From Hexactinellida sp. DTS-2022 (Eukaryota; Porifera; Hexactinellida): a stretch of DNA of 64,000 bases. Positions 21,775 to 60,804 of this stretch are shown in pieces; the first letter of the stretch is position 1; each line of letters opens with the position of its first letter. The notes beneath the pieces were generated by a model. That model searched no databases and was not told the DNA's origin. It saw nothing but the letters and a program-made list of their open reading frames with translations. Both the position numbers and the translations under genes were made by a program. The stretch is from contig JAPNXP010000009.1 in assembly GCA_028753945.1 (NCBI GenBank), positions 5,208,001-5,272,000 of the forward strand, in the 5' to 3' direction.

Positions 21775-22108
21775 TATATCTATACGCTACCTTCGTTATA
21801 TAAGGCCAAAATCTACTGAGTAAATTTTGCTGGACCATGGATTACTTAAAGGCCATTGATTATTAGCTGACATATCTTTATCTCAATAGCTAGTATTGAC
21901 AGACCTGAGAAATACATTATAATTGTATAGGAAGTTAGGAACATGATATCAAGGCATACATGACACCCTTTAGAATTGTGATATATCACCATTTGATTAC
22001 GTAATCGCTATTTTTCGTGGGAATTATCTTGTTTTTATAGCCTGCTTTTAACGGGGGCGCTGCATTAGTGCGAATTTCTGGGGCTGTCACTAGTGCGAAT
22101 TTCCCAAG

Positions 22109-22826
22109 TTGTCATTAGTTCTACTCTACTTTTGAGAGGGTTGTCATTAGTTTTACTCCACTTTTAAGAGAGTTGTCATTAGTTCTACTCTACTTTTGAG
22201 AGGGTTGTCTTTAGTTCTACTCTACTTTTGAGAGGGTTGTCATTAGTTCTACTCTACTTTTGAGAGAGTTGTCATTAGTTCTACTCTACTTTTGAGAGGG
22301 TTGTCATTAGTTTTACTCCACTTTTGAGAGAGTTGTCATTAGTTCTACTCTACTTTTAAGAGAGTTGTCATTAGTTCTACTCTACTTTTGAGAGGGTTGT
22401 CTTTAGTTCTACTCTACTTTTGAGAGGGTTGTCATTAGTTTACTCCACTTTTGAGAGGGTTGTCATTAGTTTTACTCCACTTTTGAGAGAGTTGTCATTA
22501 GTTCTACTCTACTTTTAAGAGAGTTGTCATTAGTTCTACTCTACTTTTGAGAGGGTTGTCTTTAGTTCTACTCTACTTTTGAGAGGGTTGTCATTAGTTT
22601 ACTCCACTTTTGAGAGGGTTGTCATTAGTTCTACTCTACTTTTGAGAGGGTTGTCACTAGTTCTACTCTACTTTTGAGAGAGTTTTCATTAGTTCTACTC
22701 TACTTTAGAGAGGGTTGTCATTAGTTCTACTCTACTTTTGAGAGAGTTGTCATTAGTTCTACTCTACTTTTGAGAGGGTTGTCACTAGTTCTACTCCACT
22801 TTTGAGAGGGTTGTCATTAGTTCTAC
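22109..22826. repeat. 32-bp tandem array, left TIR of MULE2
   Basis: About 22 head-to-tail copies of a 32-bp unit built of TTGTCATTAGTTCTACTC and TACTTTTGAGAGGG, with scattered single-base variants (CATTAG/CTTTAG/CACTAG; TACTCTA/TACTCCA). There are no spacers between units, so this is not CRISPR-like. Confidence 0.95.
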
Positions 22827-23040
22827 ATTCTACTCTATGGTTATACTAACTATTTATTAGTTATTAGTTGACAGTTTTTTGCTTTTTACAAACACCTGTC
22901 GCACTACTAATATACAAATGAATTTTAGAGGTCTTCTTTAATTTGTGGCTACAAAGTATACACAATGTTATACATACCACTGTTTTAAAATTCTTATAAA
23001 TTTGATTACCATACTATATCCACTAAGAAAATCGTAAAAT
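22827..23040. other. 5' leader of the MULE2 gene
   Basis: AT-rich sequence between the array and the first Met of the transposase. It would hold the promoter of the transposon gene; no specific box was identified. Confidence 0.4.
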
Positions 23041-24650
23041 GGAATACAAATTAGAGAGTTATAGACGTCACAATGGTCAGATCGTCATAGCAGCAGATGG
23101 TCATAAATATATATTATACGAAAATATACAGAAACTGCAGTCTATCTCAAATGTGCTCTCTTCAGAGATGGGTGTAAAGCTACGGCAAAATTGAATAGGG
23201 AAACAGATCTGATCACCCCGGGCAACGTTCATAACCACAATTTGATAAGGTACAATTCAGAAACTTTTCAACTCAAGTCAAAATGCAAAACCATTGCACT
23301 CACCTCACAAGATCCCCTCAGAAAAATCTTTAATGATGTCACGCGAGATGATCCTGTTGCAACTGAGGTATCGTTCAGTCAATGCGAATCTTCAATGTAT
23401 CGCTCAAGAAGGAGATCACAGCCCAAAATACCCTCAAATGTATACAATTATCTGATCTGTTACCGACAACTGCCTTTGGAAAGTTCCATAAAACAACAGT
23501 TTCATTGAATGAACAAACAGCTCTAATCTTCTTCTCGGATAAAATTTTCGATTTAATACCACAGATGAATGATATTCAGTTTGATGAAACTTTTTACTGT
23601 GTTCCGAGGCAATTGTATCAACTGTGGACAATTTTTGTAACAGTTGGCAGACACAGCTTACCTGCTATCCATTGTCTTATGACAGGAAAGGAACAAGGAT
23701 TATACAAATGTATTTTGGAGAGTATTCGCAATCTAATACCTCAATTCAAGCCTACAACCTGTATGTCAGACTGGGAAATAGCTCCACGCAATGCCTTTAA
23801 AGATATTTATCCAGATATTCATATAACAGGTTGCTGGTTTCATTCTACACAACGTATTTGGCATAAAACGCAAAAACTAGGACTTGTTCAGAGTTTCAAC
23901 ACCAATGAAGACTTATCAACATTCGTGAGAAATTTAATGGCCATTCCCTTCCTTCCAAGTACCCTAATTCGACCAACTTACAACCTTCTAAATCCTCCTA
24001 TGACACTTGGTTCTGCAGAAAAAGACAATTTAGATAAGCTTAAGAGATACTTTAATAAAAGATGGCTCTGCCAGGTTAGGCCAGAAGAATTATCTATCTT
24101 CGAAGCAAAGTCAACTACAAACAATGGGGCCGAGAGCTACCACGCAAAGCTCAAAGCAACAGTTCAGACTGGTCACCCTCGAATTTGGAACTTTTTGACT
24201 ATCTTGAACCAAATAATTATGGATACTGATCTCGAGTTTGCAAGATTGTCAAATGGATTAGAAATAAGTAGGCCAAGAAAACGTATGAATATTATCAAAG
24301 ATGAGTGCCGTGCAGCAATTAGAGATCACCTGCTAAATGGTAATTACACACCATGGGAATATATCAAGGAAATAAGTAAAACAATTGGAAAGATCGCGGA
24401 TCATTATATAGACACGGAACATTTTGATTATTCAGACAATTCGGAAACGGAAGATAATTCAGAAAGTACAAGTACAACAAGCAACAATTGTGCTATTTGT
24501 CTCAATCCTAGAATGTCCACATGGATCTTTTTACCATGCAGACATGCAAATTGCTGTGAAGAATGCAGTAACAGAATTGAAGAGCTTGGACACTCATGTC
24601 CTACATGCCGTTCTCCAATAGAGGAAAAATTCCAAATATTTACTAACTGA
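23041..24650 (+). pseudogene. FLYWCH-MULE transposase with C-terminal RING finger
   Basis: The N-terminal ~60 codons from 23041 hold a FLYWCH-like finger, split by a frameshift (KYILYEN..., then LKCALFRDGCKATAKLN and HNHN in the next frame, near 23110-23135). A second frame change falls near 23440, after which a long clean frame runs to 24650 (422 aa from 23382). That frame has QFDETF (Asp68), CMSDWE (Asp130), GCWFH (C151, H154, the Mutator CxxH) and NNGAESYH (Glu251). Residues 370-409 form a C3HC4 RING: C370, C373, C386, H388, C392, C395, C406, C409, with the LPCRH spacing seen in IAP/MGRN-type RINGs that act as E3 ubiquitin ligases. A RING fused to a MULE transposase is unusual. If active it could target host factors or the transposase itself for ubiquitylation (inference). 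The two N-terminal frame breaks suggest a dead copy, although introns are possible. Confidence 0.88.
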
Positions 24651-24771
24651 TGATCAACGCATACTTATTAGTTGTTCCATTCTAATCTCTCTTTCATATA
24701 TTTTTCATTTATTCCTAATAAATTTATCACTTCTTTGCACTAAAATAAGATACGCACTACTTGAATATAAC

Positions 24772-25065
24772 TAGTGACAACCCTCTCAAAAGTAGAGTAG
24801 AACTAATGACAACCCTCTCAAAAGTAGAGTAGAACTAGTGACAACCCTCTCAAAAGTAGAGTAGAACTAATGACAACCCTCTCAAAAGTGGAGTAAACTA
24901 ATGACAACCCTCTCAAAAGTAGAGTAGAACTAAAGACAACCCTCTCAAAAGTAGAGTAGAACTAATGACAACTCTCTTAAAAGTAGAGTAGAACTAATGA
25001 CAACTCTCTCAAAAGTGGAGTAAAACTAATGACAACCCTCTCAAAAGTAGAGTAGAACTAATGAC
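24772..25065. repeat. 32-bp tandem array, right TIR of MULE2
   Basis: About nine copies of the inverse of the left-hand unit (ACAACCCTCTCAAAAGTAGA...), starting ~120 bp after the transposase stop. The two arrays differ in copy number (about 22 against 9), so they expand or contract independently. Confidence 0.95.
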
Positions 25066-25355
25066 AACTTGGGAAATTCGCACTAGTGACAGCCCCAGAA
25101 ATTCGCACTAATGCAGCGCCCCCGTTAAAAGCAGGCTATAAAAACAAGATAATTCCCACGAAAAATAGCGATTACGTAATCAAATGGTGATATATCACAA
25201 TTCTAAAGGGTGTCATGTATGCCTTGATATCATGTTCCTAACTTCCTATACAATTATAATGCATTTCTCAGGTCTGTCATTACTAGCTACTGAGATAAAG
25301 ATATGTCAGCTAATAATCAATGGCCTTTAAGTAATCCATGGTTCGGAGTAGTAGT

Positions 25356-28520: not shown

Positions 28521-30351
28521 CCATCTTGCCGAATGCCATCTTGCCGAATTCCATCTTGCCGAATTCCATCTTGCCGAATTCCATCTTGCCGAATGCCATC
28601 TTGCCGAATGTCATTTAAATGACAATTATGGAGTGCGCCATTTAAATTACGATTATGAATTTAATCACTTTAATGTATAATGAAAATGAAGACGGAAATA
28701 AATGAAAAATGAATTGTAAATAACTGAATTATATCATAGTATTAGAAAGATAAATTATTTGAAATGACTCGTAGGAACTCTAGATGAGGGATTGATCTAT
28801 ATTGATCTACTAGTTTCAATATTCTTGAATTGAGTTGAATATACTTTTTCTTTGGTTTAGCAAGTTCATGTCCACTTTTCAACTTTTCTAAAATTATCTC
28901 ATTGTCACTTTGTTCGAGAACTATCTTATGTATGAGCTTTGAGAACGAAGGGTGGGTAGTGTTTATTCTAAGATCAAAAGCTCTATGCCAACCTTCCACA
29001 GAATTGTTCGTTCTTGGCAATACTCGCTCTACTCTATCTCTTACATTCCACAGAGCTATTGGATATAATGGCCTTCGTCTTCGACCATGATGCTCAATTC
29101 CGACCCAAGTTTTCTCAAAATATAGAAGGAAATCGCTCAGATCATCGATGAGTTCATCACTTAGTGAATTCACATATTCTTCATATATGGGAATAACATC
29201 TTCTATAGGTAGAAATGCTAGAGCCCTGAATTGTTTCATACATATTGAAAATTCTTCTTCATTCTGGTAACGTTGTTGTAATCCAAGCGCTTGAATGTGT
29301 CGCCAAATTGCTTGCCCAAAGTGGAAGTAGCATCCTTGTAATTCTGTACAAGGAAAAGTTGTAGACAGAGCATTTATTGCCGCTTTTTCGTAATCAACCA
29401 TGATAGTATTGGGATCTAAATTGGAGTTGTGTTCTTTCAAAGTTGAGAATATTCTGGTATAGACTGTTTCAGTTTTATTTTTTGCAATGCAGAATATTAA
29501 TGGGATGGTGACAGATTCAGTTAGGAGCGCATGAATTGTATATAATTGATATCCGAGAGGTGCTGAATCAAATGTCCCATCGCAAAACCAATTAGGATAT
29601 CGGTCCAGCATTCGAATATTTTCCTCTGTACCAAGAATTATTAAATCCAAGTCTGTATCGTTAGAAATTAGAAATTGTTGTCCCCTTGTAGTATGTACAG
29701 ATTCTGAAAAGTCCTCTTCTGGGGCTTTACGTTTACGACGGACAATCTTTGCTAAATTTTGTTTTGAGGGAAGTTTAACTGCAGCTGCAATGGAGATCGA
29801 TTTGGTACAGTTTTGAATTACTGAAGACGTAGCTTCTTCTGTTAGAGTAGATCTCACTTTAATTTCCCCTATTGTTCTGGCAGTTTCCAGTGCAACATTA
29901 TCTGGAGGATGATTATGAATTGAAGGGGGCTTTTTCACGCTACCGTTCGACTTGTAAGTAGTTATACGGGCATTACACAAGCCCCTTTCAACGCACCGCC
30001 AATATGTGACATCGATCGAATCTTTATCCTTGACATACATATATCCATTATTCAGTAATTTTTGGCCTCCGAAAATAGTTGAAGTGTATTCCATCATGTT
30101 GTTTTTAAGGTTAATTAAGTAACCAGATATTTATAAGATTTTTATCTAAATTTTGATGAATGAGAAGCCCACTTTGTAGGGGTTGAAACCATTAATATCT
30201 GATTGTTATTGTTTTCTTCATGTATTTTCAAAACAACACCTCTAGTGTCACTATTAACAAAATTCGGCAAGATGGCATTCGGCATGATGGCATTCGGCAA
30301 GATGGCATTCGGCAAGATGGCATTCGGCAAGATGGCATTCGGCAAGATGGG
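28521..30351 (-). mobile_element. FLYWCH-MULE transposon (MULE3), apparently whole
   Basis: Each end is an array of exactly six copies of a 15-bp unit: CCATCTTGCCGAATG on the left (28521-28610) and its inverse on the right (30262-30351). Between them is one intact transposase gene. No 9-bp target duplication could be matched (GCGTGACCA left against CTAGCACCG right). The element lies within sequence that otherwise reads as a Penelope-like retroelement. Confidence 0.88.
28742..30097 (-). CDS. Intact FLYWCH zinc finger-MULE transposase
   Basis: 451 aa without interruption. A FLYWCH finger lies at residues ~8-63 (GGQKLLNNGYMYVK, YWRC with C35, C41, then HNH at 61-63). It is followed by a linker with a basic patch (RRKRK 120-124) that may be a nuclear signal. 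The MULE catalytic core has Asp173 (FCDGTF), Asp235 (MVDYEKAAINAL), the C256/H259 motif (GCYFH) and Glu368 (NNSVEGWHRAF). The FLYWCH finger probably recognises the terminal array, and the core cuts and pastes the element with 9-bp target duplications (family knowledge). The Met at 30097 is the first one, ~150 bp from the right-hand array, leaving room for a short promoter. All catalytic residues are present, so the enzyme could be active. Similarity to the broken MULE1 protein is clear at every motif. Confidence 0.93.
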   Translation of the reverse strand: MMEYTSTIFGGQKLLNNGYMYVKDKDSIDVTYWRCVERGLCNARITTYKSNGSVKKPPSIHNHPPDNVALETARTIGEIKVRSTLTEEATSSVIQNCTKSISIAAAVKLPSKQNLAKIVRRKRKAPEEDFSESVHTTRGQQFLISNDTDLDLIILGTEENIRMLDRYPNWFCDGTFDSAPLGYQLYTIHALLTESVTIPLIFCIAKNKTETVYTRIFSTLKEHNSNLDPNTIMVDYEKAAINALSTTFPCTELQGCYFHFGQAIWRHIQALGLQQRYQNEEEFSICMKQFRALAFLPIEDVIPIYEEYVNSLSDELIDDLSDFLLYFEKTWVGIEHHGRRRRPLYPIALWNVRDRVERVLPRTNNSVEGWHRAFDLRINTTHPSFSKLIHKIVLEQSDNEIILEKLKSGHELAKPKKKYIQLNSRILKLVDQYRSIPHLEFLRVISNNLSF

Positions 30352-36732: not shown

Positions 36733-39305
36733 GATGGCGATTAATCAACAGAGAAGAATTTCACATGACGCTTTATACAATCTACATGAGATAGCCTATG
36801 ATTTGCCAGATTTCATGTGGCGATTCAGACATTTCCAGATCTAACATGTGTTTGTGGGATGTATGACATTTTGGATCAATTGGATCGCCTCTTGCTAATA
36901 GAATCACAAGCAAAACAATTACTTTCATACGATACAACATTTAAACTTGGAGATTTCTATGTATCTCCGATAATTTTTCGCCACACTGTCTTTAAAGAAG
37001 CACCTGTAATTCCAGCTCTCTTTTTAATACACGAGCGAAAGTTCCAGATAACCCATGAAATGCTGTTTGAAATTGCCGCCATGAAAGTTTCAGCAATTAC
37101 CAAAAGTTCATTTTCAATAGTCACTGACGAAGAAAAAGGAATTGTGAATGCGATTAGGAAATATCTCCCCAATTCAACCCAACTTCGCTGCTGGAACCAC
37201 ATTTTTAGAAGTGCTAGATACTGGTGCCATAGTCATAAAATCAAGAATAATGAAATTCAGGTCTTTGTTTCTGATATGAAAGATTTGTTCCATAAGCCTT
37301 CAAGTGATGCCTACGAGGCAGAGCTTAATCAACGTACTGTCAACTGGAGCAATCAAATTCATCAATATTACTTCAAGAATATACACCCAGAGGTGTACAC
37401 ATCTATTGGTCGATGGATACTCGAAAAAGAAGGAGTCTACTGTCCTTCCTGAGGAGTTGTTACAAATCAATCAGAAAGCTTCAACATGGTCCTGAAAAGT
37501 TTACAATCTTGGAAAGAAGTTCCAGTGGATTGTATCGTACTATAATTTTACATCCTTCAATCATTTTTTATGAATGAAATAACAAGAGGTCTAGCTAACC
37601 AAGGGAATTACCACCTTCATACACAATTTCTCCCTATGATGGAAGAGGCCGTAATCTCGGAGGCTACATTCATATGTGTATCTCCTCAAGATATTGTCAA
37701 CCGTATCAAAGAAAAAATTACTATAGTTACTTCAGCCGATGACTTTCTATTGTCGGGGCAGCAAGAAGTGAAAGTAAAAATCATAAACCCCATTCCTCTC
37801 TCACCCAAATCGAACGAGCACGTATAATACTAGAATCAGGTAACATCTCTTTTGATCCTAAACTGCATTTATTCAATGTTATCGGTTCTGGTGACCGCCC
37901 ATATGTTGTACGCCTATTCCCACGGGAGATGTGTAGTTGCCCTTCGAGTGAGATGTGTTATCGCCTCATTGCTGTAAAAATTAGCATTGGTAGTGAGATA
38001 GATGTCACGAAGCATCGGAAATTTAATTTGACAATGCTTCGTAAAAGAACCCGTAATCGTAAAGATAAAACATCAGGGAGGAAGAGAGTACGCAAGATGG
38101 ACGTAGATGAGAGCCATTTAGAGAATGACATTCCAAGTTATTTTCTATCTGACCCAACCTCTGAAAATACAAGTTCGCATAACAGTACTACTCAAGTTAG
38201 AGATCGTCTGGTGGATTATAGTTCTGATAACTTTTCTCTATATTCTATTTCACCCGTAAACTCACAAGATTCCAAACAAAAAGAAGGCTCTTCCCCAAAC
38301 TCGCATTCTCTAATTTTGGATGATTTTATTACCGAGAACTCCTCAAATGGAAATAATAATAATGTAACCCTCAACCTAACTTCTAAACAGGGAACCGAGG
38401 TACAGGCATCCACTCTTCAATATGAGTGCAAGAAAAATGAACTTGCACGACATCTATTGTTTTTTCATAAACAGAAGAAAAGTTATATTCTGAACGATGC
38501 TACTGTCATTGAGATTGATGAGTCTAATGTAGAGCAAGATCCCTGTAGAGAGTAAGAATACTGGCTCAAACGATATACACTGTTACAGGATCACAAACAT
38601 ATTTTACTAAGCGGTGGGTGGCTAGTGTATCGTACCGATAAGTTGGTTGAGGCAAGTCAGAAAATTTTAGCCGAGCAATTTGAAAATAAATTCGTTGGTT
38701 CAGGTTTTCAAGATGCAGCTGTTGGGTTGTGCGGCAATTTCACGATAGAAACTGGCGAATTCATCCAAATTATTCATGGTGGATCCAACCATTGGTTAAC
38801 AATTTCTACAATTGGAACTAAACATCCTGAAGTACTCTTGTATGACAGCTTACACACAAATGTTGCAGAATACGTGAAGATGCAAATTTAAAGTATATGT
38901 ACGAAGGAGAAGTCGATTATTTTGAAATTTGTGAATATAGTCAAACAAGCTGGAGTGAATGATTGCGGGTTGTTTGCAATAGCATATGCAACGGCCCTAT
39001 GTTGGGGAAAAGTCCTGGTAAGTATCGCTTCAAACAAGAGCTATTTCGGAAACATTTGCATTAGTGCTTAGACCGTGAGCATTTTACAATGTTCCCTATA
39101 ATTATAGAGAGGAGAAAGGGCGATATAATAAGCATGGAAGAAATATCTGTGTATTTTGCTACTGTAGGATGCCACAGATCAATCCCATGATTCAGTGCTC
39201 CACTTGTACAGAATGGTTCCACATTGGACCATGCGTTTCTATAACAGATGCCCAAATGAAGGACAAAAACTTTAAATGGCATTGTAGAAGATGCACTACA
39301 GTTTG
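36733..39305 (+). pseudogene. Broken MULE transposase, SWIM-like motif, ULP1-like protease, PHD finger
   Basis: Pieces in order: an N-terminal stub from 36733; a MULE core (36817-37452) with SYDTTF (Asp39), IVTDEEKGIV (Asp103), RCWNH (C125, H128) and, just beyond the stop, TNQSESFN (the Glu); a short piece 37570-37827; RLFPREMCSCPSSEMCYRL near 37905-37970, a SWIM-like CxCx(n)C with Arg where His is expected; a Ser-rich basic linker to 38555; a C48/ULP1-like protease (38625-38891) with GSNHWLTI (His56) and LLYDS (Asp74), whose Cys block QAGVNDCGLFAIA lies past a frame change near 38950; then a PHD finger (39100-39300: CVFC, CSTC, EWFH, HCRRC). At least five stops or frame changes break it. ULP1 enzymes cut SUMO-like conjugates, and PHD fingers read histone tails. 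Whether this was one protein or two genes cannot be told here. Confidence 0.8.
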
Positions 39306-43170: not shown

Positions 43171-43204
43171 CCAGTATTGGAATCACTGCCTTTATTATTT
43201 TTAT

Positions 43205-45017: not shown

Positions 45018-45134
45018 ATCCAAAATTGCATCCTGTGCCGACAGCATGTTCCATTGGAGGCACTATCAATAAACCACCAACAAAATATAGTGCCACCCAA
45101 GGAACATGCGTCGGCACAGGATGCAATTTTGGAT
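45018..45134 (+). repeat. Conserved ~117-nt hairpin, copy 4
   Basis: Plus orientation (GCCGACAGCATG first, GCATGCGTCGGC last). Confidence 0.92.
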
Positions 45135-46228: not shown

Positions 46229-46343
46229 ATCCAAAATTGCAGCTGTGCCGACAGCATGTTCCATTGGAGGCACTATCAATAAGCCACCACCAAAATATAG
46301 TGCCACCAAAGGAACATGCGTCGGCACAGCTGCAATTTTGGAT
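46229..46343 (+). repeat. Conserved ~117-nt hairpin, copy 5
   Basis: Plus orientation; joined directly to a palindrome-unit array. Confidence 0.92.
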
Positions 46344-46545
46344 TTTATTACTGTGCCGACTATACTATAGTATAGTGGCCCAGTTCTAATCTTACTGCCT
46401 TTAATAATATTATTATTTTTTTTACTGTGCCGACTATACTATAGTATAGTGGCCCAGTATTGGAATCACTGCCTTTATTATTTTTATTTTTACTGTGCCG
46501 ACTATACTATAGTATAGTGGCCCAGTATTAGAATCACTGCCTTTA
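46344..46545 (+). repeat. Array of 18-bp-palindrome units (3 copies, +)
   Basis: Three units between hairpin 5 and the next CTCCGTAG start. Confidence 0.93.
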
Positions 46546-47280
46546 TTTATATTATTATTATTTCTCCGTAGCAGGTGCCCTGGCCACACCTGTATACATA
46601 GAGGGCTGAAACTTGGCATGTAGATTCGGAGTCGACGTCTAATTTGCACCTGGGGTTACGATTTTGTATTAACAAATTATTGACACATCTTTAACACCTT
46701 TCAAAATTTGTCTGGTCCATAACTCAAAAAATGTTTTACTAAACCCCAAAATTTTATTTCATATTTGGATTCGCCATAAAATCCTGCGTCTGATGGGAGA
46801 AGAAATTTTTAAATAAAGGGGTCAATTTCTGCCATAAATGGGGGTTGAAATTTCTTTGTTTACTGACACTTCAATTTCAGTAAAGTGTTAAATCTAATTC
46901 TATTGTTTCAACTTGTAATAATTATATTGATTTAACTTGTTAAATCCTACTCTAGTGATTCAACTTGCGATAATTATATTGATTTAACTTATAAATTCCA
47001 GCTGGCTTCTATTTAATTTTAGTATTACTATACAATTGATTAAATTAAATAATATAATATAAGGAATTTGTTGACTCAACTCAACCAACCATGGATAACA
47101 TTGCTAAAATAAATAACTAATAATATAATTTATTATCAATACATAATGAATGAATGGCATTAAACACAAGATGGTTTATGATAGAAACGAACTTCAAATT
47201 TATCTACCTTTCCTTGTGACTCCGACCAATTAACAAATGGTTCTTGACGCCTTGAGGCGCTGATGACTGGGCAAAAAAAA
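46546..47280 (+). repeat. F unit 8 (+), short type
   Basis: CTCCGTAGCAGGTGCCC start, short-type distal part (AATGAATGGCATTAAACACA, GTGACTCCGACCAATTAAC), ends at hairpin 6. Confidence 0.85.
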
Positions 47281-47397
47281 ATCCAAAATTGCAGCCTGCG
47301 CCGAGAGCATGTTCCTTTGGAGGCACTATCAATAGACAACCAACAAAATATAGTGCCACCAAAGGAACATGCGTCGGCACAGGCTGCAATTTTGGAT
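47281..47397 (+). repeat. Conserved ~117-nt hairpin, copy 6
   Basis: Plus orientation. Confidence 0.92.
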
Positions 47398-47961
47398 TTT
47401 TTATTTTCTCCGTAGACGGTGCCCTGGCCAGAGCTTTATAGTTGATGGGCTAAAACTTGTCATGTAGGTGCGATGGGACCGTCTAATTTGCACCTGGGGT
47501 TACGATTTTTGATTAACAAATTTTGGACACATCTTTAACAACCTTCAAAATTTGTCTGGTCCATAACTCAAAATATGTTTTTATAAACCCCAAAATTTTA
47601 TTTCATATTTGGATTCACCATAAAATTCTGCGTCTGATGGGAGAAGAAAATTTTCAATAAAGGGTTTAATTTCTGCCATAATTAGGGGTTGAAATTTCTT
47701 TGTTTACTCACACTTCAATTACTGTAAAACTGTGAAATCTAATTCCATTGTTTCAACTTGTAATATTTATATTGATTTAACTTGTTAAATCTTTCACTAT
47801 TGTTTCAACTTGCAATAATTAAATTGATTTAACTTATAAATTCCAGCTGGCTTCTATTTAATTGTAGTATTACTATACAATGGATTAAATTAAATAATAT
47901 AATACAAGGAATTTGTTGACTCAACTCAACCAACTATGGATAACATTGCTAAAATAAAAAA
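47398..47961 (+). repeat. F unit 9 (+), truncated
   Basis: CTCCGTAGACGGTGCCC start; stops at TAACATTGCTAAAATAAA, where hairpin 7 in the opposite orientation begins. Confidence 0.85.
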
Positions 47962-48078
47962 ATCCAAAATTGCAGCCTGTGCCGACGCATGTTCCTTTGG
48001 TGGCACTATATTTTGGTGGTGGTTTATTGATAGTGCCTCCAAAGGAACATGCTGTCGGCACAGGCTGCAATTTTGGAT
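47962..48078 (-). repeat. Conserved ~117-nt hairpin, copy 7, at the inversion point
   Basis: Minus orientation. Units to the left run + and units to the right run -, so this hairpin marks the centre of an ~11-kb inverted domain (about 43.2-54.1 kb). Confidence 0.9.
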
Positions 48079-49159
48079 TTTTTTATCCGCCAAGTCATCA
48101 TCACTATGAAGGTGTTAAATTATTTCAGAAAGGTGTTTCAGAAGGCAACGACCCTTAGAGTGGTGGAAGTTTCCATTTAGCTCACTTAATTTGAGAGATA
48201 TTCAAGTTTCAGTAGAATATAATAAGTGATGAGTCAGCATTTTCTATGTGCGTGTTGGGTGATCACCCAACACCAACCAACCCATTCGAAACATAGAATT
48301 CACAAAATTGTAAAAACACATTTTTTTGACGATGTCATCATCACCTCAAGGTGTCAAGACCCACTTGTATAGGTGGTACGTGGCATAAGAATCAATTGAT
48401 AAATTGGAAGTTTTTCTCTATCTTGTATCATTTCTGAGATTTATGATATTTAATTAATTTGTATAAACAATTATTAATATTATTTATAATATAACACCAA
48501 TTTCAATGTCAACTTTCAATTATTAAGTTAAATTATTTTGTCATAAATAATTAATTAATTAATTTAGTCATCAAATTTCAATTCCGCACACTCGATGACC
48601 CCTAATATACAAATTGGAAGCATCTATATAAGGCATATACTGACTGAATTAATTATAATTAATTATGACAATATATTAATAGTGCAAGAATATTCTCGCA
48701 GATTTAAATATAATCACATAATCTGTAGTTGTTATGGAATGTAAAATCTTAGTTTTCAATTGGAAAATAGAATCCTACTCGATCTCACAAGTTGAATCAA
48801 TATAATTATTACAAGTTGAAACAATAGAATTTGATTTCACAGTTTTAGTGAAATTGAAGTGTGAGTAAACAAAGGAAATTTGCAACTCAATTGTGGCACA
48901 AACGAAGCGCAATTTGAAAATTCGTGCACTGTGAAAAGGTGTAGAATTTAATTCTCTATCAAATGTATATAAATTGAATATTCGGGTACTATTTATTGTT
49001 CCTGCTTTAATATTAAACAGGTGCAAAATTGTGTAAAAATTTTTTTATCAAAAATCGTGACCCCAGGTGCACATCTGTAACCCATGAGGCACATATCCTG
49101 AAAATTTCAGTTCTTAGTTAATTAAACTCTGTTCTGTGGACGATCTACGGACTAATATT
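48079..49159 (-). repeat. F unit 10 (-), long type
   Basis: Distal to proximal in reverse, ending with the variant proximal end (CACATCTGTAACCCATGAGG, CTCTGTTCTGTGGACGATC). Confidence 0.85.
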
Positions 49160-49274
49160 AAAAAATTGCAGCCTGTGCCGACGCATGTTCCTTTGGTGGC
49201 ACTATATTTTGGTGGTGGTTTATTGATAGTGCCTCCCAAGGAACATGCTATCGGCACAGGCTGCAATTTTGGAT
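49160..49274 (-). repeat. Conserved ~117-nt hairpin, copy 8
   Basis: Minus orientation; the outer ATCC of the left arm is replaced by AAAA. Confidence 0.9.
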
Positions 49275-50354
49275 TTTTTTTTCGCAAAGTCATCATCACT
49301 ATAAAGGTGTTAAATTATTTCAGAGAGGTGTTTCGGAAGGCAACGACCCTTAGAGTGGTGGAAGTTTCCATTTTACTCACTTCCTTTCAAACATATTCAA
49401 GTTTCAGTAGAATATAATAAGTGATGACTCAGCATTTTTTATGTGAGAGTTGGGTCATCACCCAACATCAAATAGCCCATTTTTAATATCGAATTAACAA
49501 AATTGTAAAAACACATTTTTTTGACGATGTCATCATCACCTCAAGGTGTCAACATCCACTTGTATAGGTGGCACGTGCCATAAGGACCAATTGATAAATT
49601 ATAAGTTTGTTTCTATCTTGTATCATTTCTGAGATTAATGAAATTTAAATAATTAGTATAAATATTTAATTAATCTAAGATAATTTAACACCAATATTAT
49701 TTACATCAAAATAAATTAAGTTCAATTATTTGCCATAATAATTAATTTAAATTTAATTTCACTATCATATTTGAATTCAGCGCACTCGATACCCCAATAA
49801 TTTAATTGGAACCGTTTCTCTAAGTTAAACACAGAGCGAATTAATTAGAATTAAATATCTCATGTATCCATTGTTCAAGAATATTCTGAGCAGAAATAAA
49901 TATAATCACATAATCTGTTGTTGTTATGGAATGTAAAATCTTAGTTTTCAATTAGAAAATAGAAGCCTACTCGATCTCACAAGTTGAATCAATGTAATTA
50001 TCACAAGTTGAAACAATAGAATTCGATTTAACACTTCAATTGAACTGAAGTGTTAGTAAACAAAGGAAACTTGCAACTCAATTGTGACACAAACGAAACT
50101 CAATTTAAAAATTCGTGCACTGTGAAAAGGTGTAGAATTTAATTCTCTATCGAATGCATATAAATTAAATATTTGTGCACTATTTATTGTTCTTTTTCTA
50201 ATATTAAACAGGTGCAAAAATGTGTCCAAAAAAATGTAGTAAGTAATCGTGACCCCAGGTGCACATCTGTAACCCATGAGACACATATCGTGAAAATTTG
50301 GGCTCTTAGTTTACAAAACTCTGTTCTGTGGACGATCTACGGACTAATAATAAA
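49275..50354 (-). repeat. F unit 11 (-), long type
   Basis: Near copy of unit 10, with the same variant proximal end; divergence by eye is ~10-15%. Confidence 0.85.
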
Positions 50355-50471
50355 ATCCAAAATTGCAGCCTGTGCCGACGCATGATCCTTTGGTGGCACT
50401 ATATTTTGTTGTTGGTTTATTGATAGTGCCTCCAAAGGAACATGCTGTCGGCACAGGCTGCAATTTTGGAT
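50355..50471 (-). repeat. Conserved ~117-nt hairpin, copy 9
   Basis: Minus orientation, with CATGATCC in place of CATGTTCC. Confidence 0.92.
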
Positions 50472-51628
50472 TTTTTTTTTCGCCATGTCATCATCACTAT
50501 GAAGGTGTTAAATTATTTCAGAAAGGTGTTTCAGAAGGCAACGAGCCTTTAGAGTGGTGGAAGTTTCCATTCAGCTCACTTCATTAAAGAGATATTCAAG
50601 TTTCAGTATAATATAATCTGTAATGACTCAGCATTTTTTAAGTGGGTGTTGGGTCATCAACCAACATTAACTAACCCATTTTAAATATCGAATTAACAAA
50701 ATTGTAAAAACACATTTTTTTAACGATGTCATCATCACCTCAAGGTGTCAAGACCCACTTGTATAGGTGGCACGTGTCATAAGGACCAATTGATATATTG
50801 AAAGTTTGTTTCTATCTTCTATGATCTCTGAGATTTATGATATTTAATTAATTAGTATAAATAATTATTAATATTATTTATAATATGACACCAATTTCAA
50901 TGTCAACATACAATTATTAAGTTCAATTATTTTGTCATAAATAATTAATTAATTAATTTATCTATCAAATTTCAATTCCGCACACTCGATAACCTCTAAT
51001 ATACAAATTGGAAGCTTCTATATAAGTTAAATACAAACTGAATTATTTATAATTAATTACGTCAGTATATTAACAGTGCAATTATATTCTCGCAGAAGTA
51101 AATATAATCACATAATATGTCGTTGTTATGAAATATATAATCTTAATTTTCAATTGCAAAATAGAAGCCAGCTTGAATTCACAAGTTAAATCAATATAAT
51201 TATAGCAAGTTGAATCACTAGAGTAGGATTTAACAAGTTAAATCAATATAATTATTACAAGTTGAAACAATGGAATTAGATTTAACACTTTACTAAAATT
51301 GAAGTGTGAGTAAACAAAGAAATTTCAACCCCCATTTATGGCAGAAATTGACCCCTTTATTGGAATGTTTATTCTCCCATCAGACGCAGAATTTTATGGC
51401 GAATCCAAATATGAAATAAAATTTTGGGGTTTAGTAAAACATATTTTGAGTTATGGACCAGACAAATTTTGAAAGGTGTTAAAGATGTGTCCAAAATTTG
51501 TTAATCAAAAATCGTAACCCCAGGTGCAAATTAGACGGTCCCATCGCACCTACATGCCAACTTTCAGCCCATCAACTATAAAGCTCAGGCCAGGGCACCG
51601 TCTACGGAGAAAAAAAAATAATAAAAAA
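50472..51628 (-). repeat. F unit 12 (-), long type
   Basis: Ends with the standard proximal end in reverse (GGCCAGGGCACCGTCTACGG). Confidence 0.85.
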
Positions 51629-51743
51629 TACAAAATTGCAGCCTGTGCCGACGCATGTTCCTTTGGTGGCACTATATTTTTGTGTTGTTTATTGATAGTG
51701 CCTCCAAAGGAACATGCTGTCGGCGCAGGCTGCAATTTTGTAT
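51629..51743 (-). repeat. Conserved ~117-nt hairpin, copy 10
   Basis: Minus orientation. Both outer arms carry the same compensating change (ATACAAAATTG and CAATTTTGTAT instead of ATCC/GGAT), so pairing is kept. Confidence 0.92.
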
Positions 51744-52465
51744 TTTTTTTCGCCAAGTCATCAACGCCCAAGGTGTGAAGAACCATTTGTTAATTGGTCG
51801 GAGTTACAAGGAACGGTAGATAAATTTGAAGTTAGTTTCTATCATAAACCATCAAGAGTTTAATGCCATTCATTCATTATGTATTGATAATAAATTATAT
51901 TATTAGTAATTTATTTTAGCAATGTTATCCACGGTTGTTTGAGTTGAGTCAACAAATTCCTTATATTATTATAATTTATTTAATCCTTTGTATAGTAATA
52001 CTAGAATTAAATAGAAGCCAGCTGGAATTTATAAGTTGAATCAATTTAATTATCGCAAGTTGAAACAATAGTGAAAGATTTAACAAGTTAAATCAATATA
52101 ATTATTACAAGTTGAAACAATGGAATTAGATTTCACAGTTTTATTGAAATTGAAGTGTCGAGTAAACAAAGGAATTTCAACCCCCATTTATGGCAGAAAT
52201 TAAACCAATTTTAACTAATTTTCTTCTCCCATGAGACGCAAAATTTTAAGATGAATCTAAATATGAAATAAAATTTTGGGGTTTATTAAAACATATTTTG
52301 AGTTATGGACCAGACAAATTTTGAAAGGTGTTAAAGATGTGTCAAAAATTTGTTAATCAAAAATCGTAACCCCAGGTGCAAATTAGACGGTCCCATCGCA
52401 CCTACATGCCAAGTTTCAGCCCATCAACAATTAAGCTCTTGCCAGGGCACCGTCTACGGAGAAAA
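51744..52465 (-). repeat. F unit 13 (-), short type
   Basis: GCCAAGTCATCAACGCCC start in reverse, standard proximal end near 52440. Confidence 0.85.
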
Positions 52466-52740
52466 AATAATAAAAATAATAATAATAAAGGCAGTGATTC
52501 CAATACTGGGCCACTATACTATGGTATAGTCGGCACAGTAATAATAATAAAGGCAGTGATTCTAATACTGGGCCACTATACTATAGTATAGTCGGCACAG
52601 TAATAATAATAACCAAGGCAGTAAGATTAGAACTGGGCCACTATACTATAGTATAGTCGGCACAGTAATAATATTCGGTAACCAAAGCACTAAGACCAAT
52701 ACTGGGCCACTATACTATAGTATAGTCGGCACAGTAATAA
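52466..52740 (-). repeat. Array of 18-bp-palindrome units (4 copies, -)
   Basis: Four units in (TAA)n context. The first core has ATGGTATAG, breaking the palindrome. Confidence 0.93.
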
Positions 52741-52774
52741 CTATTAATATAACCTATTATCAATATATAAAAAA

Positions 52775-52891
52775 ATCCAAAATTGCAGCCTGTGCCGACG
52801 CATGTTCCTTTGGTGGCACTATATTTTGAATGTGGTTTATTGATAGTGCCTCCAAAGTAACATGCTGTCGGCACAGGCTGCAATTTTGGAT
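52775..52891 (-). repeat. Conserved ~117-nt hairpin, copy 11
   Basis: Minus orientation, with a slightly changed loop (TTGAATGTGG). Confidence 0.92.
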
Positions 52892-54140
52892 TTTTTTCTG
52901 CCAAGTCATCATCACTATAAAGGTGTTAAATTCTTTCAGAAAGGTGTTTCAGTAGGCAACGACCCTTAGAGTGGTGCAAGTTTCCATTTAGCTCACTTCA
53001 TTTGAGAGATATTCAAGTTTCAGTAGAATATAATATGTGATGACTCAGCATTTTTAAAGTGCGTATTGGGTATTCACCCAACTCCAACCAACCCATGCCA
53101 ATTATTTAATTCACAAAATTGTAAAAATACATTTTTTTGACGATGTCACCATCACCTCAAGGTGTCAAGACTCACTTGTATAGGTGGTACGTGGCATAAG
53201 GACCAATTGATAAATTGAAAGTTTGTTTCTATCTTGTATCATCTCTGAGATTAATGAAATTTAGCTAATTAGTATAAATATTTAATTAATAAATTGATAA
53301 TTTAACACCATTTTTATGTATAGCAAAATAAATAAAGTTCAATTATTTGCACTTATTATTAATTTAAATCGAATTTCACTATCATATTTGAATTCAGCGC
53401 ACTCGATAACCCCAATAATCCAATTGGAACCGTCTATAAGTTAAATACAAAAGGAATTAATTATAATAAATTACGTCAGTACATTAATTGTGCAAGAATA
53501 TTCTCGCGAAATAAATATAATCACTTTATATGTCGTTGTTGTCAAATGTAAAATCTTAACGGTTCTATCATAAACCATCTTTAGTTTAATGCCATTCATT
53601 CATTACTTATTGATAATAAATTAAATTATTAGTTATTTATTTTAGCAATGTTATCCACGGTGAGTTGAGTAAAGTCAACAAATTCCTTATATAAATTAAT
53701 TTAATTTAATCCATTGTATAGTAATGCTACAATTAAATAGAAGCCAGCTGGAATTTATAAGTTGAATCAATATAATTATCGCAAGTTGAATCACTAGAGT
53801 AGGATTTAACAAGTTAAATCAATATAATTATTACAAGTTGAAACAATAGAATTAGATTTAACACTTTACTTAAATTGAAGTGTGAGTAAACAAAGAAATT
53901 TCAACCCCCATTATTGGCAGAAATTGACCCCTTTATTGGAAAATCTCTTCTCCCATCAGACGCAGAATTTTATGGCGAATCCAAATGTGAAATAAAATTT
54001 GGGGGTTTAGTAAAACAATTTTTGAGTTATGGACCAGACAAAATTTGAAAGGTGTTAAAGATGTGTCAAAAATTTCTTAATCAAAAATCGTAACCCCAGG
54101 TGCAAATTAGACGGTACCATCGCACCTACATGCCAAGTTT
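52892..54140 (-). repeat. F unit 14 (-), mosaic, cut by the hAT region
   Basis: The long-type distal part changes to the short type near 53560 (GTTCTATCATAAACCATC), the mirror of the change in unit 6. It ends abruptly in CACCTACATGCCAAGTTT, where the hAT-derived DNA begins. Confidence 0.82.
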
Positions 54141-54232
54141 AACTGTAATTCGCTATGACAATTTACAAACACTGTTACAATAGCAAGCATTATATTAATT
54201 AATCAAATTATTACTATTTGTAATTAGCTATA

Positions 54233-56727: not shown

Positions 56728-57119
56728 ACTAGGTCAGGTCAGGTCAGGTCAAAAAAGTTTAGGTCAGGTCAGGTCAGGTAAGGTCAGGTCAGGTCAGGTC
56801 AAAAAAAGTTTAGGTCAGGTCAGGTCAGGTAAGGTCAGGTCAGGTCAGGTCAGGTCAGGTCAGGTCAGGTCAGGTCAGGTCAAAAAAGTTCAGGTCAGGT
56901 CAAAAAAAGTTCAGGTCAGGTCAGGTCAGGTCAGGTCAGGTCAGGTCAGGTCAGGTCAGGTCAGGTCAGGTCAAAAAAGGTCTGGTCAGGTCAGGTCAAA
57001 AAGGTTCAGGTCAGGTAGGTAAGGTCAAAAAAGTTCAGGTCAGGTCAGGTCAGGTCAAGGCGTTCAGAAAATAGGTTCAGGTCACTCAAAGGTCAGGTCA
57101 GGTCAGGTCATGACCTGAC
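56728..57119. repeat. AGGTC pentanucleotide array with A-tract spacers
   Basis: Dozens of AGGTC repeats in blocks of 2-11, separated by AAAAAAGTT-like tracts, directly inside the hAT right terminus. Subterminal repeats in hAT elements are transposase-binding sites (family knowledge). The 207-aa frame of SGQVRSGQ-type repeats is a translation of this array. Confidence 0.93.
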
Positions 57120-57134
57120 CTTTTGACAAGCCTG

Positions 57135-57202
57135 ATTGAGATACATATAAATTTACTAAATGGTTTAAAAAATTATTACCTACTAACCCAGTTACGTACT
57201 TG
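57135..57202. other. Short linker between the hAT and Ginger elements
   Basis: Includes TACTAACCCAGTTA, which has a near copy (TACTAACCGAGTTA) directly right of the Ginger element at ~60807. Confidence 0.4.
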
Positions 57203-60200
57203 TTTTGCAGAAATTGGTTCCCCCCATAAAATCGTTCCGGGGGGACCAATTTCTGCAAATTCAACTTTCAATGCAGAAATTAATCCCCTTGCAGAATTCG
57301 TTCCCCCCTTACATACATAATTTAGACAGTCATCCAAAGTGACTTTGCATATTTTCAGACTGAACATGACTATTATACTATACTTGAAAGTTTTCCTTTA
57401 GCAATCTTAATTAACTAGTTATTATTCCAACACGTTAAGCAATTATTTGAGGAACTAAGATAATACTGATAACAAGAATGATCATTAGTCATAAACTAAA
57501 TCTCTGTTAATGCATACAGAGCACAGTTAATGCGCCCTAGAGTTATGTCGCTAGACTTGTTTTCTTTACTAATTTTAGGAATATCCATTCCATCATACTT
57601 GTACCAAATACCATTATAATTTGTCCTCATGTTGAAGTGCAATCCAATATGAATTGTGTAGCCAATCAAATTATACCGTAGAAGAATATCTTTGTGCTTT
57701 AGGTTTAAAATATCATCGATTTGATTTGGGTGAATAGGTTGTTTCAAGTCTAGATGACCTACTTCAAGAATTAATATGGGTGGTATCCTAATAAACCCTT
57801 GTGAAATTGGCTCTACATTGGCACTTGGATCTCTGCATTTCAGGCAGTGATATCCTGAACAAATTTGAGTGTCAATACTATTCTGGCATCCGTTTATAAA
57901 ATTGTAGATTGAAGATATGTCAATTCGCCTTTCAGAAATACAACAACAGCTCCAGCACTGAAACTCAATTGCATATAAATTGGAACATAGATGTAGCTCT
58001 CCCAATAGCTTTGTCACATTTCCTTCGTAGCCAATAAAGTCTAAGCGAGTATCTATTAGCTTGATGCCGAGTCTGGGTGCAAACCAACATCGTAATTCGT
58101 TGAAGTTTCGCGCTTTAATCATTGCTATGATTGTTTGCAAATCTGCAGAAATGGATGTGCAGGATAACTCGATTGACCTAAGTATAGTTTTCAGTTGGAG
58201 GCTTAGGAGCGTGATAATGTTATCAAGGGGACAGGTGTTAACAAGTTTTGCTCCGTTGTACTCCCCTCCCCAATTAACACAGATATCTTCTATTGACGGT
58301 GAAGCCGAAGAGAATCTAGTTTCTAAGTGTGGTAGCGTTTCTGTTTCAATTGGTTTTGGAGAACGTGGAACGGTCAAGAGTTGTTGCATAACTGGGAGTA
58401 GTACTTTTGTCGAATAGTCTGTGCTTATATTACCCCATTGGGAAAATTCAAAATCTTCCTTTGTATACTGATAGTATGGAATTTGTATACCCTGACTTTG
58501 CAAATACCATTCTTTCACTATCATAGAAATCTCATAACTTGCACAAGCGACACTATTATTTTCGTTATGTACAGAGGGATAATGATCTAATCTCCAATCC
58601 AATAAATCGATATAATTCATATTACGCCTTTTGTCTAACTCTGCATGGAGTGGTGAAAGTGGAGTGTTTGTTCTTAAGCACTCTATAACCTCATCCTTCA
58701 TCAGCCCTAGTTGATCGATAATTTGTTCTTTTGATCGTGAATTAATAGGACTGAATTCGTCTGGGCTTAAGATAGGTGAATGTACGAGTTCTAAACTTCC
58801 ATCCTCACTAAGCTCTTTATCCTCTGATAAGATAGATTCTTCCAATTCTATATGTTTTCCCTGATATAAGTCCTTAATTTCTTGTGGCTCTTTCCAGAGT
58901 TTAACCTTAGATCTTTTAACTCGTTGAACTACCTTGTTTCTGCGAACTTGCACGCAACTATCTGAAACTTTAGTAATTGGATAAGGGCCTTTCCATTTGG
59001 CTTGCAACTTTCCACCCTTGCTTCTTTTCGTGGACATGTTCTCAATTAAGACCTTATCTGATACCTTATATGTGTTGGTAATTGGGTTGACCTTTTTATC
59101 ATATTGCTTTTTCATAATTTCTTTAGATTTAATGAGGAATTTACCAGCTTCTTGAAATGAATGTTCTTGTGCACTTTTCATGAACTGTACTAAGTCATTC
59201 TTCTGGCTATCATCACTATCGGATGCTAACTCGGCATCCAAGACGTCAGGATAGAGGAACTTGAGGTTTTCAATTTCGTTTGGAAGTCGCGGTTTACGAC
59301 AACCATTCATCAGCTCGAATGCTGAATAGTTGGTTGTGTTTCTCGGGCGAATATTAAGAGAAAATGTGACTTGTTCAAGATAATAAAACCAGTCTTCACT
59401 CTTCTCGCCAATCAATTTTACTAAGGATCTTTTTATGGCTTTATGAGCTGATTCAACAAGATCATTTGTTTGGGGGTGATAAGGTGTAGTGAAAATTAGT
59501 TTGCATTGATGAACATCTTGAAGGGATTTGCAAATCATGCTAGTAAATTCAGGTCCATTATCAGTAACTATCTGCACTGGGGCACCTTGCCGACAATATA
59601 TCGAGAAAATTCCTTTTGCAACCTCCTTTGCTTCTTTTGTTTTAAGCGGGCGAGTTTCAATCCATTTCGTAAAATGATCGATAAAAGTTAATATATATTT
59701 GTACCCCTCCGATTCAACTAGTGGACCTGTCAAATCCATCCCTACTCTATACCACACTTTAGTAATAACAGGAAGTGGTTGCAAAGGCGTGACGGGAGAT
59801 TTTAAACATGGCTGATTCTTCTGGCAAGGCCCACACTTAAGGATATAAGAGTGAATATTGTTGTACATTTTTGGCCAATAGAATCTTTCTTTAGCAATTT
59901 TGTAGGAATACCTAAAGCACTGATGCCCAGTATTGTCGTGTACTTCTTTTAGAATATCTGGAACTCGATCAGCGATTATAACTAATGGACAATTTTCTCC
60001 TGATGGCCTAACAAGATGTCCTGATTTTAAGGCATAAGCTGAGGCTTTCTTACGTAATGCTCTTTTGGTGTTTTTGGTGGAATCTTTGGGGTATTGTTGT
60101 AACTTAAGGTAGTTTTCAATTTCTTCATACTCAACTGAATTCATTGGCTTCGAAAGGAGGTCAAATCGGAAATAATAATTCGAAGTTAGTTATTAATTAT

Positions 60201-60804
60201 ATATATCTTCCCCTTTGGGATATATGAAAACTTTAAAAATATGATACTTATGTTCAGTGACTTCAGTCATTGCGATTACTATACTATTCGAGTAATTACA
60301 GGGTAACGATCTAAAAGGGACACCAACTCACAATGATTACCAGCACAATATAATATTGTGTCAATGGTTTAATTAATGAATTACAACTTTACTTATGTAG
60401 AGCTCAGCTCTAGTAGAGTTCAGTTTTTCACTATGTGTATTCAGGCACTGAGGAAGGTCAGTTTTTTCCAGAGTTTGAAATTGACCTTTAGAAAGTTAGC
60501 CTGGGCTTTTAGTATGGGAAAAAATCTGAACTCTACAAAGCTCAGCTCTATATAAGGATTCCCATTGCTTAACGTGTTGGAATAATAACTAGTTAATTAA
60601 GATTGCTAAAGGAAAACTTTCAAGTATAGTATAATAGTCATGTTCAGTCTGAAAATATGTAAAGTCACTTTGGATGACTGTCTAAATTATGTATGTAAGG
60701 GGGGAACGAATTCTGCAAGGGGAACAATTTCTGCATTGAAAGTTGAATTTGCAGAAATTGGTCCCCCCGGAACGATTTTATGGGGGGGACCAATTTCTGC
60801 AAAA
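57203..60804 (-). mobile_element. Ginger-type DNA transposon with ~240-bp TIRs, looks whole
   Basis: The left end TTTTGCAGAAATTGGTTCCC and right end inverse CCAATTTCTGCAAAA open inverted repeats that continue, with few differences, to about 57445 and 60565 (shared TAGACAGTCATCCAAAGTGA and CTTAATTAACTAGTTATTAT). Between them is one integrase-type gene and no reverse transcriptase or capsid gene, the layout of Ginger elements. A 4-bp target duplication could not be fixed. The 5' leader (60145-60565) is non-coding and has GAGCTCAGCTCTAGTAGAG-like short repeats. Confidence 0.88.
57496..60144 (-). CDS. Ginger-type integrase with C-terminal ubiquitin-hydrolase-like domain
   Basis: 882 aa, one uninterrupted frame. 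An HHCC zinc-binding region has H69, H74, C104 and C107. The DDE integrase core has Asp137 (GMDLTGP), Asp195 (TDNGPEF) and Glu231 (NDLVESAHK), with 35 residues between the last two. A GPY/F-like module follows at ~362-418 (VSDKVLIENM, AKWKGPYPI, VKLWK). After an acidic linker, residues ~620-882 look like a USP/C19 ubiquitin hydrolase: a Cys box at 635-643 (LVNTCPLDN, Cys638), paired zinc-binding CxxC motifs (C730/C733 and C767/C770), PPILILEVGHL, and a His box IHIGLHFNMR (His836) before WYKYDGM. The Cys box departs from the usual USP form, so activity is uncertain. Ginger integrases are cut-and-paste enzymes related to those of Gypsy elements (family knowledge). The tail could process ubiquitin on host or transposon proteins (inference). 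The frame and both ends look whole. Confidence 0.88.
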   Translation of the reverse strand: MNSVEYEEIENYLKLQQYPKDSTKNTKRALRKKASAYALKSGHLVRPSGENCPLVIIADRVPDILKEVHDNTGHQCFRYSYKIAKERFYWPKMYNNIHSYILKCGPCQKNQPCLKSPVTPLQPLPVITKVWYRVGMDLTGPLVESEGYKYILTFIDHFTKWIETRPLKTKEAKEVAKGIFSIYCRQGAPVQIVTDNGPEFTSMICKSLQDVHQCKLIFTTPYHPQTNDLVESAHKAIKRSLVKLIGEKSEDWFYYLEQVTFSLNIRPRNTTNYSAFELMNGCRKPRLPNEIENLKFLYPDVLDAELASDSDDSQKNDLVQFMKSAQEHSFQEAGKFLIKSKEIMKKQYDKKVNPITNTYKVSDKVLIENMSTKRSKGGKLQAKWKGPYPITKVSDSCVQVRRNKVVQRVKRSKVKLWKEPQEIKDLYQGKHIELEESILSEDKELSEDGSLELVHSPILSPDEFSPINSRSKEQIIDQLGLMKDEVIECLRTNTPLSPLHAELDKRRNMNYIDLLDWRLDHYPSVHNENNSVACASYEISMIVKEWYLQSQGIQIPYYQYTKEDFEFSQWGNISTDYSTKVLLPVMQQLLTVPRSPKPIETETLPHLETRFSSASPSIEDICVNWGGEYNGAKLVNTCPLDNIITLLSLQLKTILRSIELSCTSISADLQTIIAMIKARNFNELRCWFAPRLGIKLIDTRLDFIGYEGNVTKLLGELHLCSNLYAIEFQCWSCCCISERRIDISSIYNFINGCQNSIDTQICSGYHCLKCRDPSANVEPISQGFIRIPPILILEVGHLDLKQPIHPNQIDDILNLKHKDILLRYNLIGYTIHIGLHFNMRTNYNGIWYKYDGMDIPKISKENKSSDITLGRINCALYALTEI

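Follow-up and report, generated by a model that had tools for sequence, protein, structure and literature searches.

A 64 kb stretch of the genome of Hexactinellida sp. DTS-2022 (contig C18, positions 5208001-5272000; hereafter the window) encodes three transposases followed by C-terminal domains of the ubiquitin or SUMO pathway. The protein of MULE2, a Mutator-like element (MULE), ends in a RING finger. The core of a second such element, MULE4, is followed by a ULP1-like protease and a PHD finger. The third protein, from a Ginger DNA transposon, ends in a domain predicted to have a USP fold. These architectures recur within each family, key active-site residues are conserved, and both Ginger and RING-bearing MULEs (RING-MULEs) have moved recently. 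Probably, these cut-and-paste DNA transposons, a Ginger lineage and two lineages of MULEs, gained ubiquitin or SUMO enzymes that were then kept by selection for a benefit in cis; catalysis, substrates and benefit are what we infer. The original prediction, made from the window alone, had described three unrelated transposases with independently gained domains. The C-terminal folds are confirmed, and so are separate gains, since three different folds each recur within their own family. The word "unrelated" must be amended, because MULE2 and MULE4 both match the MULE profile (PF10551). Hence, there are two transposase superfamilies rather than three. Note that the window's own genome (112 Mb, 18 contigs) is the sole eukaryote genome searched, and that loci such as L004 are places in it. 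Counts of Ginger, USP and RING-MULE matches are lower bounds, with scores given for the best candidates only. Residue numbers run from stop to stop unless stated otherwise.

The Ginger transposon and its C-terminal domain

The Ginger copy is the only intact one among the three fusion elements in the window. Its open reading frame (ORF) matches Integrase_H2C2 (1.4e-14, residues 76-127) and rve (3e-12, residues 150-239) in Pfam, and a GPY/F motif, GPYPITKV, is visible by eye in the translation. NCBIfam returned integrase-type matches, all below cut-off. The terminal inverted repeats (TIRs) are about 243 bp long. Their arms, at 57184-57443 and 60564-60820, share 96.5% identity, and 24 of the terminal 25 bp match between ends. 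In seven of eight Ginger copies, including the one in the window, the termini match and 4 bp of target are duplicated; L008 has no duplication and L006 has a second possible pair. The duplications differ by copy (TACT, ACGT, GGAC, CCCT, CCCC, TGGA and CCAT). Furthermore, the proteins at L004-L007 are almost identical and lie on three contigs. Hence, Ginger copies jumped recently with the USP-fold domain intact. Across the genome, there are at least 65 Ginger matches; at least 22 reach residue 880 or beyond, and at least 12 span both integrase and C-terminus in one match. Beside the element, downstream of hAT-like ORFs, lies an array of about 65 AGGTC pentamers (56731-57057).

The C-terminal domain is a predicted USP at the level of fold. 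We aligned eight members: six from Ginger proteins plus L068 and L069, which are 32-33% identical. The putative catalytic residues (Cys653, His851 and Asp866) and four putative zinc cysteines are invariant in all eight, as are the motifs N-T-C, D-N, CxxC, CxxCR, G-x-H-F and Y-D. The same Cys and His had been picked out in the original prediction, numbered there 638 and 836. AlphaFold gave the whole Ginger protein a predicted template modelling score (pTM) of 0.74. In that model, residues 1-59 are disordered, residues 309-312 fall below 50, and block means elsewhere are 70-95, bar one of 62. Those of the C-terminal domain are mostly 80-95. Foldseek then returned 191 matches in the PDB at E <= 1e-3, the best being USP12 (1.5e-9), and the titles of all 50 listed are those of USPs or USPL1. 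Viral USPs make up most of the named top matches in the viral library. The USP fold anticipated from the sequence was thus obtained. A profile search of the PDB gave a single chance match (E 0.77).

The same domain occurs elsewhere in the genome, with 123 matches listed (119 scored of 278 candidates). L068 (C1:752700-755700) encodes an integrase-like ORF of at least 940 residues (rve 8.5e-5, below cut-off) with the USP-fold domain at its C-terminus. Clusters of cysteines resembling CXC and PHD can be seen by eye. L068 is a second integrase lineage with this domain; a further place, C17:124917, scores the same. At L069, a GPY-like stretch lies upstream, in another ORF. Since L068 and L069 both carry it, the domain seems older than the Ginger family of the window. 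Between Ginger lineages, synonymous change is saturated in both integrase and USP regions. Nonsynonymous change (dN) is 0.18-0.30 for the integrase, 0.31-0.49 for the USP region and 0.47-0.66 for the linker.

The substrate of this putative enzyme can be approached by comparison with USPL1, a SUMO-specific USP. In USPL1, both blocking loops are absent and the residue after the catalytic His456 is Phe457, rather than the Tyr of ubiquitin USPs; the F457Y change impairs SUMO2 binding and cleavage (PMC8983731). As described there, USPL1 shares with the Ginger domain the USP fold, the lack of a loop before the catalytic His, the following Phe and a four-Cys zinc finger. The Phe is present in all eight members of our alignment. 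In addition, the HxGxHF motif places three residues between the HxG His position and the catalytic His. Hence, there is no room for a blocking loop next to the catalytic His. Other features speak against a USPL1-like enzyme. C98, the USPL1 family, is absent from the 11 Pfam families listed for the eight members at E up to 10. Foldseek ranks ubiquitin USPs above USPL1 (1.5e-9 versus 1e-7). The residue around Tyr451 of USPL1, if we have matched the position rightly, is His in six of eight members, Tyr in L069 and Val in L068. A His four before the catalytic His, as found in those six, is a trait of ubiquitin USPs; USPL1 has Tyr. A search of the genome with the C98 profile found no match, but controls were equally silent.

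The domain had originally been called a deubiquitinase. The USP fold stands, and the substrate label is less certain, because two features are USPL1-like and others are not. On these sequence features, we slightly prefer SUMO as the substrate, at about even odds, with ubiquitin a possible but less favoured candidate. The best novel lead is a possible SUMO protease with a USP fold in Ginger. In its full form, which we offer tentatively, the Ginger USP fold would have become a SUMO protease independently, by USPL1's route. This would involve loss of the ubiquitin-gripping loop and replacement of Tyr by Phe, with the domain taking the place of a Ulp1 module, and would go together with a dimer-dependent IAP-type E3 on the large RING-MULE clade.

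RING-MULEs and the MULE4 family

We next consider MULE2. In the window, the N-terminal third of its transposase is split over other frames upstream; at L015, it is in one frame with the rest. No target duplication was found at the ends of the window copy, though TIRs are present. The left inverted repeat is included in a direct duplication (18535-20129 and 20611-22205, offset 2076 bp), which was partly inferred by eye. The RING, originally assigned to C370-C409 from the first Met, corresponds to C375-C414 here and is a clear Pfam match.

Genome-wide, there are 100 RING-MULE matches (98 scored of 2157 candidates). At least 77 of these reach query residue 420 or beyond, 65 of which begin by residue 70. 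We inspected 35 loci, namely the 15 best and 20 hand-picked because they reach the RING end. A strict RING pattern was found in the longest ORF at 30 of the 35. One ligand is changed in L060 and in L066, and the RINGs of L017 are in shorter ORFs. By pattern, no RING was found at L010 or L011. An earlier proposal was to look for further genomic copies, and many MULE2 relatives have indeed kept the RING, as all eight aligned members have kept the USP-fold domain. We aligned the RINGs of 32 ORFs, leaving out L010, L011 and L017. The eight ligands are present, in order, in 32, 31, 31, 32, 32, 32, 32 and 32 of the 32. Pro412, Arg415 and Ile418 occur in every sequence. So does an aromatic residue, Phe or Tyr, at position 425, ten after the Arg and followed by just one or two residues.

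In cIAP1, the linchpin R606 and the tail residue F616, which acts in trans across the RING dimer, are needed for activity, in that mutants fail in ubiquitin discharge (PMC6349121). The distance from Arg to aromatic in RING-MULEs is that of R606 to F616. Relatives of the RING by sequence in the PDB number 39 and include the E3s MGRN1, BIRC2/3/7, XIAP and MDM2/4. From its sequence, we predict that the RING is a functional, dimeric, IAP-type E3. One informative comparison (L051 or L052 with L055) gave synonymous change (dS) of 1.8 and dN of 0.12 for the RING. Together with the values for Ginger, RING and USP domains look constrained and linkers less so. Two full-length RING-MULE relatives have weak N-terminal FLYWCH matches (9.1e-4 and 0.014), below cut-off.

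Target duplications, which in MULEs are about 8-11 bp long, were sought at 24 RING-MULE loci: 10 have symmetric duplications of 8-10 bp, four have asymmetric ones and 10 have none that is convincing. The near-identical L019, L021 and L022 have different target duplications. Hence, RING-bearing elements moved recently. Another MULE of the window, MULE3, shares 27.7% identity with the MULE2 core. No RING was found in its ORF by Pfam, or by eye in the three downstream frames. MULE3 is flanked by tandem arrays of one 15-bp unit in opposite orientation (28521-28614 and 30262-30350).

The MULE4 of the window is itself broken but belongs to a family with MULE, ULP1 and PHD parts, an architecture already published. 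Its frame is interrupted by stops and frame changes, and judging by the sequence, the window copy is unlikely to make a full protein. The His, Asp, Gln and Cys motifs of Ulp1/C48 are visible in its pieces, which gave no C48 match in Pfam. Relatives match C48 above cut-off at L045 (1.3e-5) and at two MULE4-family places, C16:3626170 and C9:1230968, the latter within L045. Matches at L037 and L044 are below cut-off and L047 has none. In the genome, there are 37 matches to the MULE4 core and 40 to the ULP1 piece. One uninterrupted ORF of 787 residues, on C13, contains all four parts: MULE core, SWIM-like motif, ULP1 and PHD. The claim that ULP1 and PHD follow the MULE4 core therefore holds, albeit with a broken copy in the window. 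No target duplication was found at this copy. A 24-bp repeat at 33962 and 39579 was tried as its TIR and rejected, since the motif occurs at three further places in the window; this copy thus has no recognised TIR.

Proposed roles, alternatives and known relatives

If the domains are enzymes, each would work at its own element. The integrase part of the Ginger protein would bind and insert the element, and the USP-fold isopeptidase would remove SUMO or ubiquitin at the transposition complex, whether from transposase, silencing factors or repair factors. In RING-MULEs, the RING would dimerise with the transposase and act as an IAP-type E3, by means of the linchpin Arg and the C-terminal aromatic acting in trans. 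It would attach ubiquitin to itself, or to a host factor bound at element ends, in a manner comparable to RAG1 with its RING. In the MULE4 family, ULP1 would cleave SUMO and PHD would read chromatin.

Several observations weigh against so simple an account. The enzymatic activity of the RING, USP and ULP1 modules is predicted from sequence, and the benefit in cis is at one further remove. The profile searches first proposed were only partly borne out: RING was found, C48 was found in relatives rather than the window, and UCH was matched by two of the eight USP-domain members, marginally (best 0.0092). The window Ginger C-terminus had no Pfam match even at E 10. Foldseek alignments have TM-scores of 0.36-0.49 (query length) and root mean square deviations of 6-13 Å in the 50 matches listed, and so the match is at fold level only. 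Near-identical Ginger copies differ in the USP region by no synonymous and one to three amino-acid changes, too few to judge. The 35 RING-MULE loci are a non-random sample, with near-identical pairs included. An active-site residue is gone from some copies of ULP1 (His in L047, Cys in L042), and the AlphaFold model of the MULE4 ULP1 region has a predicted local distance difference test score (pLDDT) of 40.

Of the alternatives, the best is that the modules are tools for repair or assembly, which remodel ubiquitin or SUMO on the strand-transfer complex or on break-repair proteins. Such a role was argued for OTU and Ulp1 by Bao et al. 2010 (PMC2836005), and the modules do ride on a protein that makes breaks. 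We consider this somewhat unlikely as a separate account; it overlaps our preferred explanation, differing in substrate alone.

The original prediction proposed one shared pressure, with all three modules shielding the transposase from turnover by the host or from chromatin silencing. There are precedents: SUMO acts in small-RNA-guided silencing in C. elegans (PMC8131101, PMC8131105), and Helitrons have independently acquired deubiquitinases of the VTD and OTU types, which have been proposed to protect against the proteasome (PMC9741609). Like the Ginger domain, these are transposon-borne, but the transposon class and the protease fold are different. We regard a single pressure as unlikely and do not retain it. 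The RING would add ubiquitin, while USP and ULP1 would strip ubiquitin or SUMO, and MULE3, which also lies in the window, lacks a module of this kind. Nor does proximity help. With copy numbers of 98 or 2157 for RING-MULEs, 60 or 119 for Ginger and 20 for MULE4 (the last two being rough readings), 0.04-0.9 windows of 64 kb are expected, roughly, to hold all three. Hence, co-occurrence fits chance, and functional clustering in the window was rejected.

It is quite improbable that the Ginger domain is a pseudo-enzyme, with a USP fold that only binds ubiquitin or SUMO. Inactive USP-like proteins exist, and the position of the usual oxyanion residue of USPs, an Asn five before the Cys, is not Asn in the Ginger alignment. 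Conversely, all eight members, down to 32% identity, keep the Cys, His and Asp as well as the zinc ligands unchanged. That host domains were trapped at element ends by chance, and lie unused, is hardly credible: MULEs are known to capture host gene fragments (PMC6446971), but RING and USP stay in frame, with their key residues, in many diverged copies. Selection for enzymes that benefit their element thus remains our preferred reading.

The window Ginger is a variant close to Ginger1, not a member. As described in PMC2836005, Ginger1 likewise has H2C2, a DDE integrase and GPY, TIRs of about 40-270 bp, a 4-bp duplication and a C-terminal ubiquitin or SUMO protease. However, that protease is OTU or Ulp1 (with PHD), and targets are CCGG or CCGT, which match none of the seven Ginger duplications found here. 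We file the element beside Ginger1, rather than within it, because it has a USP fold in place of OTU/Ulp1. According to the same source, all listed Ginger1 proteins but one have OTU or Ulp1, and a Trichomonas transposase has peptidase C19. It also aligns Mutator elements with Ulp1 from hydra, lancelet and plants, with PHD in its Fig. 1e. These have the same core, ULP1 and PHD as the MULE4 family, with no essential difference seen other than that the window copy is broken, and they bear out the earlier remark that ULP1-bearing MULEs are known in plants. In our genome, OTU domains are numerous (150 scored of 440 candidates; for example C1:885884, C9:445475, C18:2008865 and C10:116707). Four OTU matches sit in 1260-residue ORFs, which may be another transposon family.

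RAG1/Chapaev proteins also join a DDE transposase and a RING (PMC4411706, 2015). They are of another superfamily and have the RING after an N-terminal Chapa domain, whereas that of RING-MULEs is C-terminal and IAP-like. According to the 2015 paper, no other known transposable elements encoded RING or Chapa. In the accessible part of a 2019 MULE survey (PMC6446971), a separate ORF of an aphid Ghost element has a RING, and one oomycete element, 37_Pi, is listed with a C3HC4 RING; that part contains no family-wide C-terminal RING fusion, nor the words ubiquitin, Ulp1 or OTU. Similarly, term searches of PMC12863088 and PMC10045372 did not find the words ubiquitin, OTU, Ulp1, USP or protease. We found no paper on a USP-Ginger, or a MULE family ending in RING, in the open PMC literature; Repbase Reports may hold such entries. 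Hence, the RING-MULE and USP-Ginger fusions look undescribed, and ULP1-MULEs are known.

Features of the window and significance

Coordinates of the elements and domains discussed are collected in Table 1.

Table 1. Transposon features of the window, in window coordinates
Feature	Position	Strand	Details and evidence
Ginger DNA transposon, 3606 bp	57201..60806	-	ends TGTTTTG...CAAAACA; flanked by the target duplication TACT (57197-57200 / 60807-60810)
Ginger transposase ORF, 897 residues stop to stop, first Met = residue 16	57499..60189	-	one intact frame
Predicted USP-fold domain, about residues 632-895	57505..58296	-	8-sequence alignment, AlphaFold, Foldseek
Putative catalytic Cys653, His851, Asp866	58231-58233, 57637-57639, 57592-57594	-	roles by analogy with USPs
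Putative zinc cysteines 745, 748, 782, 785 of the USP-fold domain			role by analogy with USPs
MULE2 copy, inverted repeats including 32-bp tandem arrays	21834..25342	+	repeat search
MULE2 transposase ORF, 427 residues, core to RING	23367..24647	+	Pfam MULE 2.8e-9
RING finger residues 375-414, linchpin Arg415, C-terminal aromatic tail Phe425	24489..24647	+	zf-C3HC4_3 1.3e-11 (residues 372-420)
MULE3, FLYWCH + MULE, 462 residues	28745..30130	-	Pfam
MULE4 core	36802..37449	+	Pfam MULE 5.8e-8, Transposase_mut 2.8e-6
MULE4 SWIM-like cysteine motif and linker	37743..38552	+	SWIM by eye; no Pfam match
MULE4 ULP1-like domain, two open pieces (38556-38888 / 38892-39065)	38556..39065	+	motifs; relatives score as Peptidase_C48
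MULE4 PHD finger, different frame	39079..39303	+	Pfam PHD 3.8e-7

The window is rich in transposons, with a P-element-like transposase (TNP-like RNase H), hAT-like elements, several MULEs and the one Ginger. ORFs for THAP-like and P-element-like transposase lie at 8423-10869 (TNP-like RNase H 3.1e-15 in Pfam; THAP by eye). Pfam matches of the hAT-like ORFs to BED and DUF659 are both below cut-off. An NHL gene (Pfam) and a MORN-like ORF (by eye) are also present and, with the transposons, suggest an animal-like host. At 43000-54200, inverted repeats of 300-670 bp are densely nested, together with satellite-like arrays of 24/52-bp and about 65-bp units.

A role for the ubiquitin pathway in transposition was proposed in 2010 (PMC2836005), and transposases with built-in ubiquitin or SUMO enzymes give a direct handle on that proposal. 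The Ginger domain makes the choice between SUMO and ubiquitin testable, because OTU, Ulp1 and a USP fold all appear to occupy one position within a single superfamily. Besides RAG1/Chapaev, the DDE transposases with a fused RING now include a second superfamily through the RING-MULE clade; from the IAP-type tail of this RING, we predict an activity that would be lost on single changes. If the Ginger enzyme did become a SUMO protease, a need to strip SUMO at the transposition complex would be common to Ginger elements and met by two unrelated folds.

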